A stretch of DNA of 64,000 nucleotides from a bacterium (GTDB lineage: Bacteria; SZUA-182; DTGQ01). This document shows, piece by piece, positions 43,150 through 55,718 of this stretch. A program made the position numbers and the translations under genes. A model generated the notes under the pieces. That model saw only the letters and a program-made list of their open reading frames with translations. It did no database searches and had not been told where the DNA came from. The DNA lies in NCBI GenBank assembly GCA_040755755.1, contig JBFLZW010000010.1:62001-126000 (forward strand), read 5' to 3'. The stretch's first letter is position 1. Every line of letters begins with the position of its first letter.

Positions 43150-44399
43150 GAGGATATCCTTTGTGTTACTTGTTTTGACATATCAGTGATCATCAGGGCA
43201 AGGGAAATAAGGAATGGCAGGGGATCCTTTCTATCCCAGACCGCGTAATTGATGTTCCCGCCCAATTTATGAAGTATATCCCCCGGTTTTTTTCTCCGGG
43301 TGAACAATTCGCTGGTGAAATGCTTGATAAAGCCATCTTCGGCAATCCAGGTAGCTGGCTGATATTTTGAGGAGGAGGATGGAGGCCTGCCTTTGCCAGT
43401 GAGGTCAGAGTAGGCGACCAGAGGGAGGTTGATGCCAAAGCTTCCACTCAGCCGGTGCTGGTCCCAGAACCGGGGATTTATTTCAATCAGGTAATAGATT
43501 CCGGTGGCAGGGTCCCTTTTGTACTCAATTTCCGATGTGCCGGTAAATCCGATAAATTTTAACAGGCGTTTGCTGCATTCAGTGATTTCATTATTAACAG
43601 CGCTTTGAACAACAATCCCGGTACCGAACCTCTCCGGTCTCTGGATTCTCTTTCGGGTATTGAAAGAAACCAGAACATGAGAATGCCGGTCACAATAGGA
43701 ACAAAAGGTATAAATATCGTCATCCGCACCCTCGATATATTCCTGCAGCAATACCGTAGGATTGATGTGCTTGAATCTATTGTATTCCCGCCAAAGAGTT
43801 TTCTCGGATGGGCAATAAATCGCTTTCCTTTTTACAATCTTCCAAATTCTGTCTTTTCTCCAGTCAGCCGCACGAAGAGGTTTTATGATAACCGGGTAGT
43901 CAATTTGAGAGCTTATTGAACCTAATTCATCCTCTCTGCCAATTACATATGTTTTCGGTGTAGTGACATTGCACCTTTTGGCAGCTTCAAACAATTTCCA
44001 CTTATCCATGACCGTATTCAGGGTGTTCTTTTCCGGCAGGGCAATGATAAAATAGGGTTCGAGTTTTTCCCGGTACCTGTTGAGGAAAAGAATATCATGG
44101 TCTCTGGTGGGGAAGATGACCGGCTTTTGGGTTTCTCTTTGAGCAAGGGCTATCAGAAACTGAGAGAGCCTCTCCGGTTCGGCCTGAGAATCCGGAGAAT
44201 GGAAAAAATTAACATATCTGCTATAATTACCGCATGCCCATCTTTTCGATCCTATTCCGAAAACCTTTATCCCTGTTTCGGCAAAAGATCTGGCGATGCC
44301 AAGTCCCGTATATGCTAAGTTGAGTATGAATACCGATGGAAATCCACGTGAATCGAGGTCAACTTCCGTATCAAAATCAATTTTTAATTTTGGATTCAA
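43137..44399 (-). CDS. ATP-grasp ligase
   Basis: 420-aa ATP-grasp protein of the carbamoyl-phosphate-synthase-like/peptide-ligase group. The pre-ATP-grasp fold comes first (VFILNLAYTGLGIARSFAETG). ATP-binding segments are YPVIIKPLRA near residue 170, LLQEYIEGADDDIYTF near 220, and the metal site LIEINPRFWDQHRLSG near 305. It probably joins a carboxylate to an amine in EPS modification; substrates unknown. The TTG start at 44399 has GAGG about 10 nt upstream and overlaps the preceding gene by 23 bp. Confidence 0.83.
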   Translation of the reverse strand: MNPKLKIDFDTEVDLDSRGFPSVFILNLAYTGLGIARSFAETGIKVFGIGSKRWACGNYSRYVNFFHSPDSQAEPERLSQFLIALAQRETQKPVIFPTRDHDILFLNRYREKLEPYFIIALPEKNTLNTVMDKWKLFEAAKRCNVTTPKTYVIGREDELGSISSQIDYPVIIKPLRAADWRKDRIWKIVKRKAIYCPSEKTLWREYNRFKHINPTVLLQEYIEGADDDIYTFCSYCDRHSHVLVSFNTRKRIQRPERFGTGIVVQSAVNNEITECSKRLLKFIGFTGTSEIEYKRDPATGIYYLIEINPRFWDQHRLSGSFGINLPLVAYSDLTGKGRPPSSSSKYQPATWIAEDGFIKHFTSELFTRRKKPGDILHKLGGNINYAVWDRKDPLPFLISLALMITDMSKQVTQRISSWVE

Positions 44400-45588
44400 T
44401 CTCGTGCTTTCCTCTTCTTATGAGGTTGTAACAACCGGTTAACAATCTGTACATATTCTCTTGCGTGGAGCGTCTGGATATCCGTATTTCCAGTAAATCC
44501 CGTGAATAGTTCTCCCACATTTCCTTATAACCGGCACCCTGGCCTCCTATCTTGAGAAAATCATACTCCTTATAGCCTTCATGAATCGCCTCCTCTATGC
44601 AGTAGCTGTGCAGCAGCAATCCAAGCCGTACATGGGTATTTTCGTGAGGAATAAGCCCAGCCTGGAAAAAATGAATTTTGTTGTCAAAGGCAAAATTATA
44701 ATTAGCGGCCACGGGTCTGTTCTCTAAATGTAAAAAGCACAGCTTTAACCAGCCGTTATTGAATGCCAGAGGTATCAGTTTCTTATGGAATGCCTTCCAT
44801 TTCCGGCTGAAAAAAGCTCCGGGCTGTCCCTTGCCCTGCCATCTGTGCTGATGCAAGGCTTCCAGATCATCGAATGCTTTCGAAAGCTCATGTTCATGCT
44901 GAACCACATGATAGGTTCCTGACAGTTTATTGAATTCTTTTCTCCCTCTGGTGATCTTGTAGCGGAGACTTCCCTGAATGGATTGAAGATATTCATCCCA
45001 GGTATCAGGGAGTTTAATCAAGATGCTCGGAGTGCGTTTGGTGATTTGAAAATTTAACCCATTCTTTCGGGCAGCCTCATGGAGCAGGGTTGAAGCAGGA
45101 GACTCGGCGGAAACGTTTTCTAAAATTATTTCATCCCAGGCAGGGAGACCGGAAAGGCATTTCACCAGGCCATCGATAAAGTCTTTTTCTCTGCCTTCCC
45201 GAATGATCAAATCAAGATAATCGGAAACAACGTTTCTCTCACTGGTTCTGCCGGAACCGAGGAAACCTGCGGTTTTGTACGGTAATAACTTGAAATACCG
45301 GATATTTTCACGGTGTATCGAAAGAGGAGCTATCCCGATGATTTCCTCACCTTCAGATCCGAGAATAATAAACAGATATCTTTCATCACCATAGATTTCC
45401 CACCAGGTATACAGCCATTCCCAGGTCTGGGTTATGGCCCTGTTTGAGCTTCTCTGAACAAGTCTGTTCCAGACAGTGTGAAGGCTTTCAAATTCCTCGG
45501 AATTATCAATAATCCTGAAACTTAATCCGCGAGGCGAGGATAGTTCCGTATCCAGTATTCTGGATTTTATCAGAGCTGAGTTACTCAA
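44377..45588 (-). CDS. GNAT/CelD-type acyltransferase
   Basis: 403-aa protein of the BcsL/CelD acetyltransferase_6 group, related to FemAB. Visible segments: AITQTWEWLYTWWEIYG near residue 55, IGIAPLSIHREN near 85, RYKITRGRKEFNKLSG near 210, HQHRWQGKGQPGAF near 245 and YDFLKIGGQGAGYKEMW near 350. It likely N- or O-acylates a sugar or amino acid of the repeat unit. Start is TTG 45588, whose TTGA overlaps the stop of the frame upstream, supporting translation of the downstream part of the rhodanese gene. Confidence 0.83.
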   Translation of the reverse strand: MSNSALIKSRILDTELSSPRGLSFRIIDNSEEFESLHTVWNRLVQRSSNRAITQTWEWLYTWWEIYGDERYLFIILGSEGEEIIGIAPLSIHRENIRYFKLLPYKTAGFLGSGRTSERNVVSDYLDLIIREGREKDFIDGLVKCLSGLPAWDEIILENVSAESPASTLLHEAARKNGLNFQITKRTPSILIKLPDTWDEYLQSIQGSLRYKITRGRKEFNKLSGTYHVVQHEHELSKAFDDLEALHQHRWQGKGQPGAFFSRKWKAFHKKLIPLAFNNGWLKLCFLHLENRPVAANYNFAFDNKIHFFQAGLIPHENTHVRLGLLLHSYCIEEAIHEGYKEYDFLKIGGQGAGYKEMWENYSRDLLEIRISRRSTQENMYRLLTGCYNLIRRGKHEIESKIKN

Positions 45589-46055
45589 TGTTTTCCAATG
45601 AGAATTTTTCCATTTCTTACGAGGACAAAACCTGCTTTCGGCATCTCATCAAGCCCGCCTAAGATACACAGTGCATTTGTATATCCCTGCTCACGTAATA
45701 AGATCGCTGCACGAGCGCTCTGTGCCTCACCCGCTCACCTGCAGAAGAGTAAAATTGTCTGGTCTTTTGGATATGGGAGGTTAATTTTCTCCAGCGTCGA
45801 TAAAGGAATGTTAACAGATCCAAGAATACGTCTGCTCTTGTAGTAATTTGCTCCATCAACTGAAATCAGGATGGCTTTGCCGGATTTATAGATTTCAAAT
45901 GCCTCTTGAATGCCAATTCTTTTTGCACTTTGAGTTTCTTCTCGATACTCGTTAACTATATCTTCATGTGAGGCATTCTCGGATGTCGCCCAAACCGGGT
46001 ATGGAGGGCACAAGAGCAGGATACCAAGGGCAAGGACCGGAATAATTTTCAGCAT
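45585..46055 (-). CDS. periplasmic rhodanese-like protein with in-frame TGA (candidate selenoprotein)
   Basis: Read through codon 107 (TGA at 45735-45737), this is a 156-aa protein. It has a signal peptide (MLKIIPVLALGILLL...VWA) and one rhodanese domain: RIGIQEAFEIYKSGKAILIS, RRILGSVNIPLS, QTILLFCR-[TGA]-AGEAQSARAAILL, and ALCILGGLDEMPKAG. In rhodanese relatives with a CxC(P)xEAxSAR-type loop, the TGA position holds Cys. The open frame continues 49 codons and ends with a TTGA overlap with the CelD-like gene. ATG 46055 has AGAGG upstream. Selenocysteine fits best; a nonsense mutation or sequence error remains possible. If TGA acts as stop, the product is a 106-aa fragment. The role in the locus is unknown. 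Confidence 0.7.
45709..45725 (-). promoter_or_regulatory. possible bacterial SECIS hairpin downstream of the TGA
   Basis: In the mRNA, GCAC starts 10 nt after UGA and pairs with GUGC. A bulged A and GA/UC continue the stem to a GCGC loop about 17-20 nt after UGA. Distance and a loop-leading G fit bacterial SECIS rules, but the stem is short. Confidence 0.4.
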
Positions 46056-46087
46056 AGTTACCTCTATAATTTCCACTGGTTATCATC

Positions 46088-47035
46088 TTAAAGAATTTGA
46101 GATAATTCCCAGGGGTACCACCGCTTCAGTGCAAATGCTTCAGTATGGTGATTGTTTGAACCTATTATCGTTGTTACTGCACAGTTAAAATGAAGTTTCC
46201 GCAATATATTGAACATCTCAGGGCTGTACTGGGCTTCTTTGCCAAATGGATAAGCAAAACTGCTCACCTGTTTACCAACCTTTTCCTCGATCGTTTTTTT
46301 TGATTGCTGGATTTCCTCTTCAGCCACAGCAAGCGGTATCCTGGTCAATATCGGATGGTTGACGGTGTGGGCCCCAAAGGAAATCCCCTGTTCAGACATC
46401 TCCCGGATTTCATCCCAGCTTAACATGAGGTTATCAAGCTCCCTGAAATCATTAACTGCAAGTCTTATGCCCAATTCATCGAGCAGACGGAGCCGCTGCT
46501 CATCGGGACAATCTTTGAAATATCTCATGACCTTCTCGGATGCAGCAAACTTTTCCTCTCTGGTTCGCAGGGGAGCGGTAATGCGCTTATCAGCGGCAAG
46601 CTCCAGATATGTTTTGTCTGTTTTCATAAACATGAAGCGCAGCTTGATAAACCAGGGTGCGATCCCGCTTTCAACATAGCTCGTAGTTACAAAAATAGTA
46701 GCCGGAACCTGATATTTTTTCAGAATCGGGTAAGCTTTCTCAAAGTTATCTTTGAACCCGTCATCAAAAGTGATGGCTACACAACCGCGCAGGGATTCTC
46801 CTTTTTGGGATCTCTCCATGATTTCGTCAAGTGACATAACATGGTAATTCTTTACCAGGAAGGCAATTTGCCGTTCAAAATGACTGGTTGATGTTTCCGG
46901 ATAAAAGCCGTTGGGCTTATCGGTTATCATATGATAAGGCAATACGAAAAATCTCTCTAAAAGAAGACTGAAACGGTAAATTTTAGCCTTAAATAACAAC
47001 TGCTTGCATGCGCTTTTCACTGGGGACGGTACCAT
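46088..47035 (-). CDS. polysaccharide deacetylase family protein
   Basis: 315-aa NodB-homology (CE4-type) enzyme. The metal motif ITFDDGFKDN lies near residue 95 and the second motif, GAHTVNHPILT, near 225. SSFAYPFGKEAQYS follows near 270. An N-terminal hydrophobic stretch (YRFSLLLERFFVLPYHMI) is not a clear signal peptide. It would remove N-acetyl or similar groups from the polymer or its precursor. It lies 32 bp before the rhodanese gene and five bases after the glycosyltransferase gene. Confidence 0.87.
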   Translation of the reverse strand: MVPSPVKSACKQLLFKAKIYRFSLLLERFFVLPYHMITDKPNGFYPETSTSHFERQIAFLVKNYHVMSLDEIMERSQKGESLRGCVAITFDDGFKDNFEKAYPILKKYQVPATIFVTTSYVESGIAPWFIKLRFMFMKTDKTYLELAADKRITAPLRTREEKFAASEKVMRYFKDCPDEQRLRLLDELGIRLAVNDFRELDNLMLSWDEIREMSEQGISFGAHTVNHPILTRIPLAVAEEEIQQSKKTIEEKVGKQVSSFAYPFGKEAQYSPEMFNILRKLHFNCAVTTIIGSNNHHTEAFALKRWYPWELSQIL

Positions 47036-52768: not shown

Positions 52769-53917
52769 TTATACCAGATACTTCGACAGGGATGGTCCGA
52801 TAGTCTGGGTAACCCAGGGGGGCAGCTTTTTCCAGAGCTTTATCTTTCTCTGGTACTTGGGATTTGCAGGGCTGAGATTGGGCATTTCCGTGAGCCTGTT
52901 CAGGAAGTACTGGTAATACAATGGCTTTGGCTCAAAACCCCAATGTCTTTTAAAATGGAATGATCCGGTATTTTCCTTGCTTCTTCCGAAATCGAAAAAG
53001 CGATAGCCGTTTTCACAGCCATATTTCATTAATTGCCAGTACATAAAGTCATTGGGTGCCAGATCCCGGTATTCAACCAGGGAGCCCGCATAATACGGGA
53101 GAACCTGGTCTTTATAGAAGAACGTGAGAACTCCGGCAATCGGCAGCTTGTCCTGGTTCTGGATGATGAGCAGAAGGCAGTTTTCCTTGAATTCATCGCA
53201 GATGTTCTCGAAAAACCTGAAGGTAAAAAGTGGTGTTCCCAGATTATGGAAGCTCCTCGCCAATACACTGTAAAATGACTTCAGGTTATGGTTTCCAAAC
53301 TCGAAAGAAAGGTTAAATTTTTCACCCTGCCGGATCATGCGCCGGGCTTTTCTTGGAATGGCCTCCATGTTTTGGTCAAGGTCCGGGAATATCTCCCGTT
53401 TGAAGTTATAATAGAGGCTCTTGAGTGCAAGCCCATTGAGCAGTTTATCTTTATACCGGAGCTCAAGATAGTCGAGTCCCTGGCTTTTGGTAATTTCCAC
53501 AGCCCGTTGCAGTAATAAATTTTCTATCTCGGTGTTATTGGCAAGTGCACCCCCGACTTCTGCAAAAGGGCTGGAGATTATAAACTTTCCAAAAAGAAAG
53601 CTTTTGATGAAGAAGAGAGGAAGTACGCCTGCAAGGGTGGTTTGAGATGATCTCTGATCATCAGGGGTAATGGCTTCCGGCGGGTCGAAGGTCTGCTCGG
53701 CGAGCAGGTAACAGGGACTGTGCCCGAAGGTCTTTTCGACAATATTTTTCCAGCCGATGAGGTGAAAAAAACTCCCATCCGGATGTGCTTTGACGTAATT
53801 ATCCCACGCTGGTTGATCATTTGGCCGTAACTGCCTGATTGTTATGGTCGCTTTTCTGGAATCGGTTTTCTGAAGGTCGATCATCTGCTGACTTGAGTGA
53901 GGTGTAAGAGTGGCCAT
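52769..53917 (-). CDS. FemAB-related protein, PEP-CTERM-locus type
   Basis: 382-aa GNAT-fold protein related to FemAB aminoacyltransferases. Segments: WDNYVKAHPDGSFFHLIGW near residue 40, ARRMIRQGEKFNLSFEFG near 190, PNDFMYWQLMKYGCENGYRF near 295, and FDFGRSKENTGSFHFKRHWG near 315. Such proteins are regular members of XrtA loci and probably attach an amino acid or acyl group to the polymer. GGAG precedes ATG 53917. The gene overlaps the 3' end of xrtA by about 100 bp, an unusually long overlap. Confidence 0.88.
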   Translation of the reverse strand: MATLTPHSSQQMIDLQKTDSRKATITIRQLRPNDQPAWDNYVKAHPDGSFFHLIGWKNIVEKTFGHSPCYLLAEQTFDPPEAITPDDQRSSQTTLAGVLPLFFIKSFLFGKFIISSPFAEVGGALANNTEIENLLLQRAVEITKSQGLDYLELRYKDKLLNGLALKSLYYNFKREIFPDLDQNMEAIPRKARRMIRQGEKFNLSFEFGNHNLKSFYSVLARSFHNLGTPLFTFRFFENICDEFKENCLLLIIQNQDKLPIAGVLTFFYKDQVLPYYAGSLVEYRDLAPNDFMYWQLMKYGCENGYRFFDFGRSKENTGSFHFKRHWGFEPKPLYYQYFLNRLTEMPNLSPANPKYQRKIKLWKKLPPWVTQTIGPSLSKYLV

Positions 53918-55718
53918 TGGTGTTCACTTTCTCCTGTAATCCGTGCTCCTTACCGTCGATATCCATAAGATACTGGAAGCAGGTCGTGAAGTGGCATTGT
54001 TCGAAATTCTGTACGAACTGGAACAAGTTAGAGAGAGTTTTATTCAGGTTTGTGTAGTGTCTGAATTTCCCGTAGAGTGAGGCTTCTTTTACCACAGGCT
54101 GCTCCGGGTCAATTTCCCACGGATGCAAATAGAAGAGATAAGCATGGTCATTTTTGAGTATGTATCGAACACCCATTATAAATGCTGGAAAGGGTATCAG
54201 GCGGAAATATCCACCTCCTCCCCAGGGAAGAACGCAATCCGAGAAGGTAATATTACTGATAGGAAGCTCGTATAAATTTTCCGAAACCTTGTGAGCGATA
54301 CCTTTTTTCCAATTTCCGGCTAAAGCCAACCGCCCGTATCGAGCATTGACGCCGAATGAATTAAAACTTGAATCGTAAAGGTACCCGCACTCTTCAACCA
54401 TTTTCAGAATTTCATCACTGATAGAGAAGCTCGGAGCGCGGTAGCCAAGAACAGGAAAGCCAATGATATCTTCCAGGAGCATTTTACTCCTGGCAAGATC
54501 ATCTTCCATATTTTGGCTTGATTGCCGGGAACAGAGCATATGGTTATATCCATGAGATGCGACTTCATGTCCGCGGGAATGGATCTCCCGGACAAGGCCG
54601 GGGATTCGCTCGGCGAGCCACCCAAGTACAAAGAATGTGGCTTTTACTTTGGCCTCGTCAAAAAAATCCAATAAGCGATAGGTATTTTTCTCTACTCGCA
54701 GATCTTTATTCGGCCAGTCAGCAAAGGGGATAACCGGCTTAAAGTTTTCCACCTGGAACCAGTCTTCAACATCAATGGTCAATAAGAGAGAAGGTCTTTC
54801 AGGGGGTGAATTGGAGAAACCGATTTCATCTTTTCTCTCCGGGCAGTGGTTATATATGAGCGGTTCCTGATGGACTACTGTTTTCCCACCTGTTCCGAGC
54901 CGGCCAAGAACATTATGGAAGCCAAGGAGCAGGAGTAATCCGAGAAGGAAGACCACCATTCCTGAAAACTCATGGAGGAAACCCTGGGCAACTGCGGCAC
55001 CAAAGCGGCTGGCAAACCCGGCTGTCATACTGAGCCGAAACACATTAGCCATGATGGCAATGGGTATGGCTGAGAGAAACAATAGCCATTTCTTTATCCA
55101 GGAATGACTGGAAAAATACGCGAATGCCGAGCTCAGGGCCAGGAGTGAGACCAGTGAGCGAAGGCCGGAGCAGGCATCCACGACCTCCAGGGTCGTATTG
55201 GCCAGGTACAGAACATTTCCCTCCCGCACAATGGAAATCCCGATGGTTTTGATGAGGTTTTCAGCCATAGCCGAGGAGAATATCTGCAGGGGAAAGGCAA
55301 TCGCATTCCAGATGATGGCCGGGATCGGGACCATGAACAGGAGATAACCCAGGGGAAAAGCGATCTTGCGGGTAATTCCTTTTCCCAGGAGAAAGAACGA
55401 AAGGCCAAAGAGAGATATGATGACAGCCAGTCTCATGGTAAACAGCTCGGCACCGAGGTTGCTCACAATATGCACTGCCATCCCAAGAACGAGGAGCACT
55501 ATTCCCCAGTTGCCTGATTCCACAGAATACGAAGACAGCTCTTTTCTCTTATGCCATATCATCGAGACCGCAAGAAGAGGAATGAAAAAACCATGTGAAT
55601 AGTTAGGGTCTTCCATCCAATCCCTGCCGAGCTCAATAAGAGTAGTGCTAAAGAGCATAAAGAATGAAGACAGTAAAATAGTCATATAAAGGTAAGTTGA
55701 GGAGAGGAGTTTTTTCAT
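53817..55718 (-). CDS. xrtA: exosortase A fused to an XrtA-type polysaccharide deacetylase
   Basis: 633-aa bifunctional protein. Residues 1 to about 275 are exosortase/EpsH: eight or so membrane helices with the catalytic triad Cys183 (VVDACSGLRSL), Arg228 (NVFRLSM) and His249 (HEFSG). It cleaves PEP-CTERM signals. After a roughly 35-residue linker, about 310-600 is the XrtA-linked deacetylase: LTIDVEDWFQVENF, ATFFVLGWLAERIP, HEVASHGYNH, LGYRAPSFSIS and LPWGGGGYFRLIP. These are usually two genes. The frame is uninterrupted. It follows epsI by 24 bp and overlaps the FemAB gene. Confidence 0.93.
   Translation of the reverse strand: MKKLLSSTYLYMTILLSSFFMLFSTTLIELGRDWMEDPNYSHGFFIPLLAVSMIWHKRKELSSYSVESGNWGIVLLVLGMAVHIVSNLGAELFTMRLAVIISLFGLSFFLLGKGITRKIAFPLGYLLFMVPIPAIIWNAIAFPLQIFSSAMAENLIKTIGISIVREGNVLYLANTTLEVVDACSGLRSLVSLLALSSAFAYFSSHSWIKKWLLFLSAIPIAIMANVFRLSMTAGFASRFGAAVAQGFLHEFSGMVVFLLGLLLLLGFHNVLGRLGTGGKTVVHQEPLIYNHCPERKDEIGFSNSPPERPSLLLTIDVEDWFQVENFKPVIPFADWPNKDLRVEKNTYRLLDFFDEAKVKATFFVLGWLAERIPGLVREIHSRGHEVASHGYNHMLCSRQSSQNMEDDLARSKMLLEDIIGFPVLGYRAPSFSISDEILKMVEECGYLYDSSFNSFGVNARYGRLALAGNWKKGIAHKVSENLYELPISNITFSDCVLPWGGGGYFRLIPFPAFIMGVRYILKNDHAYLFYLHPWEIDPEQPVVKEASLYGKFRHYTNLNKTLSNLFQFVQNFEQCHFTTCFQYLMDIDGKEHGLQEKVNTNGHSYTSLKSADDRPSENRFQKSDHNNQAVTAK

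Follow-up and report, generated by a model that had tools for sequence, protein, structure and literature searches.

The 64,000-nucleotide stretch of DNA analysed here (the window) very probably encodes an exported selenoprotein of the rhodanese fold, in which an in-frame UGA at codon 107 would be read as selenocysteine (Sec) by means of a SECIS hairpin and SelB. The predicted gene occupies positions 45585..46055 and, like every window feature given below, lies on the minus strand. It encodes 156 residues when UGA107 (45735..45737) is read as Sec, and it closes on a terminal TGA at 45587-45585. Gene finders stop at UGA, and this protein would consequently appear in annotations as a short fragment or not at all. 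The first-pass annotation had already proposed selenocysteine at this codon, and we judge that proposal well supported, as the decoding machinery, a column of TGA codons in homologous genes, and a conserved hairpin have all been found.

Translation of the frame from 46055 to 45585 reads MLKII...LLFCR-[TGA]-AGEAQSARAAILL...GKH-TGA, and the rhodanese frame is broken exactly once, at codon 107, as originally described. The frame ends in a TGA that shares bases with the TTG start codon of the next gene in the operon (TTGA, 45588-45585), again in agreement with the initial description. A Shine-Dalgarno-like AGAGG (46061..46065) stands 5 nt 5' of the ATG, and residues 1-23 (45987..46055) form a hydrophobic N-terminal segment resembling a signal peptide (...PVWA, followed by TS); both features were read directly from the sequence. 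The 49 codons located 3' of the TGA, previously described as good rhodanese sequence, are real rhodanese sequence as judged by profile and by predicted structure. The Pfam PF00581 score increases from 17 bits with the pre-TGA part alone to 34 bits with the whole frame (E 4e-8; cut-off 22.2), covering residues 56-137 (45645..45890), and AlphaFold2, run with nine family members, models the domain at a pLDDT of 93-98 both before and after residue 107. When this model was used in Foldseek, the solved rhodaneses YgaP (5hbo) and E. coli rhodanese (2jtq) were matched; these fold matches and the PF00581 score above the gathering cut-off place the protein in the Rhodanese superfamily. The canonical D-V-R and tryptophan motifs are lost in the window protein. 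An open frame of 49 codons has a probability of approximately 7% by base composition and is weak evidence if taken alone. The reading of UGA107 rises above chance because TGA is found in the same column of 18 homologous loci and is followed by a rarely matched hairpin motif.

A first scan of the genome contigs found no relative. The homologue search, in which the NF041203 model was run against 386 genomes plus three genomes of the G032 group, identified TGA in the UGA107 column at 18 distinct loci from 16 other genomes belonging to many families, and Cys in the same column at three loci (L062, L073, and L080). Homologues with Cys at codon 107, as expected in the first-pass annotation, do occur, alongside those with TGA. 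Of 18 genomes with TGA-bearing matches, 17 encode SelB, compared with 8 of the 21 in which the rhodanese matches have no TGA; this comparison leaves out one genome without any rhodanese match (G074) and concerns related sequences rather than independent trials. The single TGA-bearing genome without SelB (G081) may reflect an assembly gap, as G352 of the same genus has SelB. The tree groups the window protein, on a long branch, with the CxU proteins of G032, G180, G318, and G284 at moderate support (88/85).

A double TGA with the motif Y-U-x-U-P is found in the rhodaneses L059, L065, and L076 (G040, G325, and G081; also in G352), where TGA occupies both the catalytic Cys position and the one two residues further along. 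For this rhodanese form, the sections of PMC13188914 and PMC9312934 available to us list CxU alone, with no double-UGA motif. In L057 (G294), a DedA-like membrane protein is fused to a CxU rhodanese with an in-frame TGA. Loci L089-L093 belong to one small lineage in which CxU rhodanese selenoproteins are predicted in all three genomes (G318, G180, and G032), with two copies each in G032 and G318, and lipoprotein-like N-termini are seen in L068/L089 and L078/L090.

Directly downstream of UGA107 we identified a SECIS-type hairpin (45701..45721) composed of 3 bp, a 1x1 mismatch, 4 bp, and the 5-nt loop CGUGC at +22 to +26 (45713-45709). A 5-nt loop is found at this distance after the UGA in all 19 of the 19 genes, with the loop pattern N-G-[GU], and only 0.2-0.5% of positions or triplets match the loop-hairpin pattern. 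The first-pass annotation had proposed a hairpin with its loop at +17 to +20 as fitting SECIS spacing; this proved to be one alternative fold that is not conserved in the family, and the family loop position must be substituted for it. The stem covaries: in 18 distinct sequences, pairing holds for 88% of its cells and 21 double-sided changes are observed compared with 9.5 in shuffles, a stem signal that collapses once the partner is slid by one column. In a synonymous-codon test, the hairpin of the window gene gave a z of -1.96 (p 0.051) and the other family genes mostly gave z values of -1.6 to -3.0 (family z about -2; a combined probability for the family hairpins draws on related sequences, so its trials are not independent). 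The 41 controls lack the hairpin (mean z -0.05); most of them are non-Sec rhodaneses, aligned at the equivalent residue. The window gene's hairpin is among the weaker ones (-5.7 kcal/mol locally) and rival folds exist. Plain single-sequence folding of the window gene was no better than shuffles (z +0.6 to +1.1), and the SECIS claim is therefore carried by the family comparison. The bSECIS criteria, as given in PMC13188914, are a 3-9 nt loop that has G in its first two positions and lies 16-37 nt after the UGA, a stem of at least 4 bp, and an MFE of -7.5 or lower; the window gene agrees with them, having the loop CGUGC, a spacing of 21 nt, and -9.7 kcal/mol over an extended stretch, while the short hairpin has only the local value given above. 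These results map a SECIS signature for the CxU rhodanese family, namely a 5-nt N-G-[GU]-N-N loop 21 nt after the UGA.

It could be argued that the gene is a pseudogene, that is, an ordinary rhodanese in which TGC or TGT mutated to TGA to leave a truncated product, and the long branch, the missing D-V-R and tryptophan motifs of canonical rhodaneses, and the lack of an orthologue in relatives would be consistent with such an origin. However, the TGA coincides exactly with the TGA column of the Sec family, the family hairpin follows it at the family spacing, the frame stays open as far as the stop overlapping the start of the next gene, and the domain is modelled confidently on both sides of residue 107, making a pseudogene highly improbable. 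A sequencing or assembly error at a true TGC or TGT codon is scarcely credible; the genome is indeed a draft, but the error would need to strike the one Sec codon of the family with the family SECIS hairpin already in place downstream.

On genomic grounds, the predicted capacity of the source organism for Sec decoding is not in doubt. Its genome (5.26 Mb, 97.6% complete, a draft of 88 contigs) encodes one SelA (563 bits), two SelB (383 and 349 bits), and SelD (385 bits), together with two tRNA-Sec-like genes above the Rfam cut-off (69 and 59 bits), and selA, selB, selC, and selD, on which the first-pass annotation had made its proposal depend, are thus all present. The selD gene itself contains an in-frame TGA, and four formate dehydrogenase-like matches carry one within their catalytic motif (V/L/T-U-H). 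The hairpins of SelD and these formate dehydrogenase-like genes (L048, L095, L098, L099, and L100) seem to form two classes, one with a GGUCU loop at a spacing of 18 and the other with a UGG-type loop at a spacing of about 22, and these classes might reflect the two SelB.

The genome also appears to encode a second UGA decoder. Contig C2 (L002, 1444-3556; other decoder loci are L001 on C31 and L039 on C7 of the same genome, and L106 on C90 of the same-genus genome G001) carries a second tRNA with a UCA anticodon, U73, an 8-bp acceptor stem, and a 4-bp T-stem with one bulged A (GAGGGTAA...GGAGGTTCGATTCCCC-TTACCCTC-T), and the second selB is located 57 nt downstream. The two SelB of the genome share 38% identity. 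As this tRNA and two SelB also occur in G001, the C2 pair is not a contamination of one assembly. A U73, a UCA anticodon, an A-bulged 4-bp T-stem, and a downstream selB characterize the selC* tRNA-Cys that functions with SelB* (Mukai et al. 2017, summarized in the review PMC7609411). The C2 pair shares U73, UCA, the 8/4 arm with the bulged A, and the downstream selB, but differs in having no adjoining cysS* and an acceptor G1:C72 rather than A1:U72.

It is conceivable that UGA107 is read as Cys by the C2 SelB and its selC*-like tRNA, always or under selenium shortage, yielding a CxC rhodanese. The resemblance of the tRNA directly upstream of the second selB to selC* (PMC7609411), the retention of this tRNA and of the second SelB in G001, and the three homologous loci with Cys in the UGA107 column all point in this direction. 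However, the other SelB-positive CxU genomes have one SelB each, which suggests that the ordinary SelB is the usual reader of hairpins of this class; moreover, the window's genome has a separate tRNA-Sec (with encoded G73 and CCA), SelA, and SelD, and cysS* was not found beside selB*. We consider decoding as Cys improbable and favor Sec at UGA107, since the single-SelB CxU genomes carry the same hairpin. A further, rather unlikely arrangement is that both decoders share UGA107 in one cell, with SelB and Sec-tRNA-Sec acting when selenium is present and SelB* and selC* inserting Cys when it is not; if true, the active site of the secreted rhodanese would alternate between CxU and CxC. With two UGA decoders in the genome, this gene could serve as a natural test case for Sec versus Cys decoding.

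Under the preferred Sec reading, a ribosome arriving at UGA107 would meet the SECIS hairpin, with its 5-nt loop 22-26 nt downstream, and SelB bound to this hairpin would deliver Sec-tRNA-Sec. Sec would thereby be placed at the end of the C-x-U motif (C105-R106-U107) of the active-site loop CRUAGEAQS (residues 105-113; 45717..45743, defined by alignment). As predicted from the alignment, C105 is the rhodanese catalytic Cys, and in the cell envelope it may pair with Sec107 in a selenenylsulfide or persulfide relay that serves thiol/persulfide or peroxide chemistry. The protein's most likely function is redox chemistry of the persulfide or peroxide/thiol type, carried out by this Cys-Sec pair. 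Its signal peptide-like N-terminus points to the envelope as the probable site of action. Activity as a thiosulfate sulfurtransferase of the GlpE/PspE type seems unlikely because the C105-S113 loop exceeds the canonical CxxGxRS by two residues.

The rhodanese gene lies in an exosortase/EPS cluster, between an upstream operon gene of the polysaccharide deacetylase family (46088..47035) and the downstream, translationally overlapping gene with an acetyltransferase domain (Acetyltransf_6, FemAB-like; 44377..45588). The locus type is defined by an EpsH/XrtA-type exosortase at 53817..55718, where the exosortase domain and a polysaccharide deacetylase with DUF3473 are fused in a single frame, in agreement with the earlier assignment to an EPS (XrtA) locus. 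The position of the gene and its overlapping stop and start would allow co-production with the EPS/exosortase operon, and a link of the rhodanese to EPS assembly is suggested by operon position only. None of the relatives tested share the exosortase/EPS context. An orthologous locus was not found in same-genus or same-family genomes; no rhodanese homologue was recovered from G001, and its best counterpart of the neighboring acetyltransferase is a match of only 31%. Literature on exosortases with rhodaneses yielded nothing relevant by title and abstract.

Judged by its sequence, the predicted protein is a divergent member of a known selenoprotein kind. CxU rhodaneses have been described as NCBIfam NF041203 (rhodanese_LYCAU), termed 'rhodanese-like domain-containing protein form 3' in PMC13188914 and 'COG0607 form 2, CxU' in PMC9312934. 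NF041203 is the best NCBIfam match of the window protein (46.7 bits, E 2.2e-12), although the curated cut-off of 115 is not reached, and the motif [LFY]-[YF]-C-x-U with TGA at U is found as LFCRU in the column alignment. The two are alike in the rhodanese fold, CxU, the TGA column, and the SECIS hairpin directly downstream. They differ in the loop, for which C[ATS]UPxEATSAR is commoner in NF041203 whereas the window protein has CRUAGEAQS without Pro after U; the window protein also has a replaced canonical D-V-R, a C-terminal tail, and an exosortase/EPS operon. Its closest relatives in the tree, the CxU rhodaneses of G032, G180, G318, and G284 (L069 and L089-L093), similarly have a pre-loop strand without canonical DVR, but share 28-30% identity with it and, where neighbors were read (L010), have no EPS genes nearby. 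Canonical single-domain rhodaneses (GlpE, PspE, and the YgaP domain) share the fold and the catalytic Cys position, but their CxxGxRS loop is two residues shorter in the alignment and they contain no Sec; GlpE/PspE thiosulfate sulfurtransferase models gave 22-28 bits against cut-offs of 102-126, and the longer loop does not correspond to the six-residue CxxGxR. The CxU rhodanese selenoproteins are thus extended to a divergent, probably exported form encoded in an exosortase/EPS operon, and what is new compared with the known systems is this genetic context, the mapped family SECIS signature, and the apparent coexistence with a second UGA decoder.
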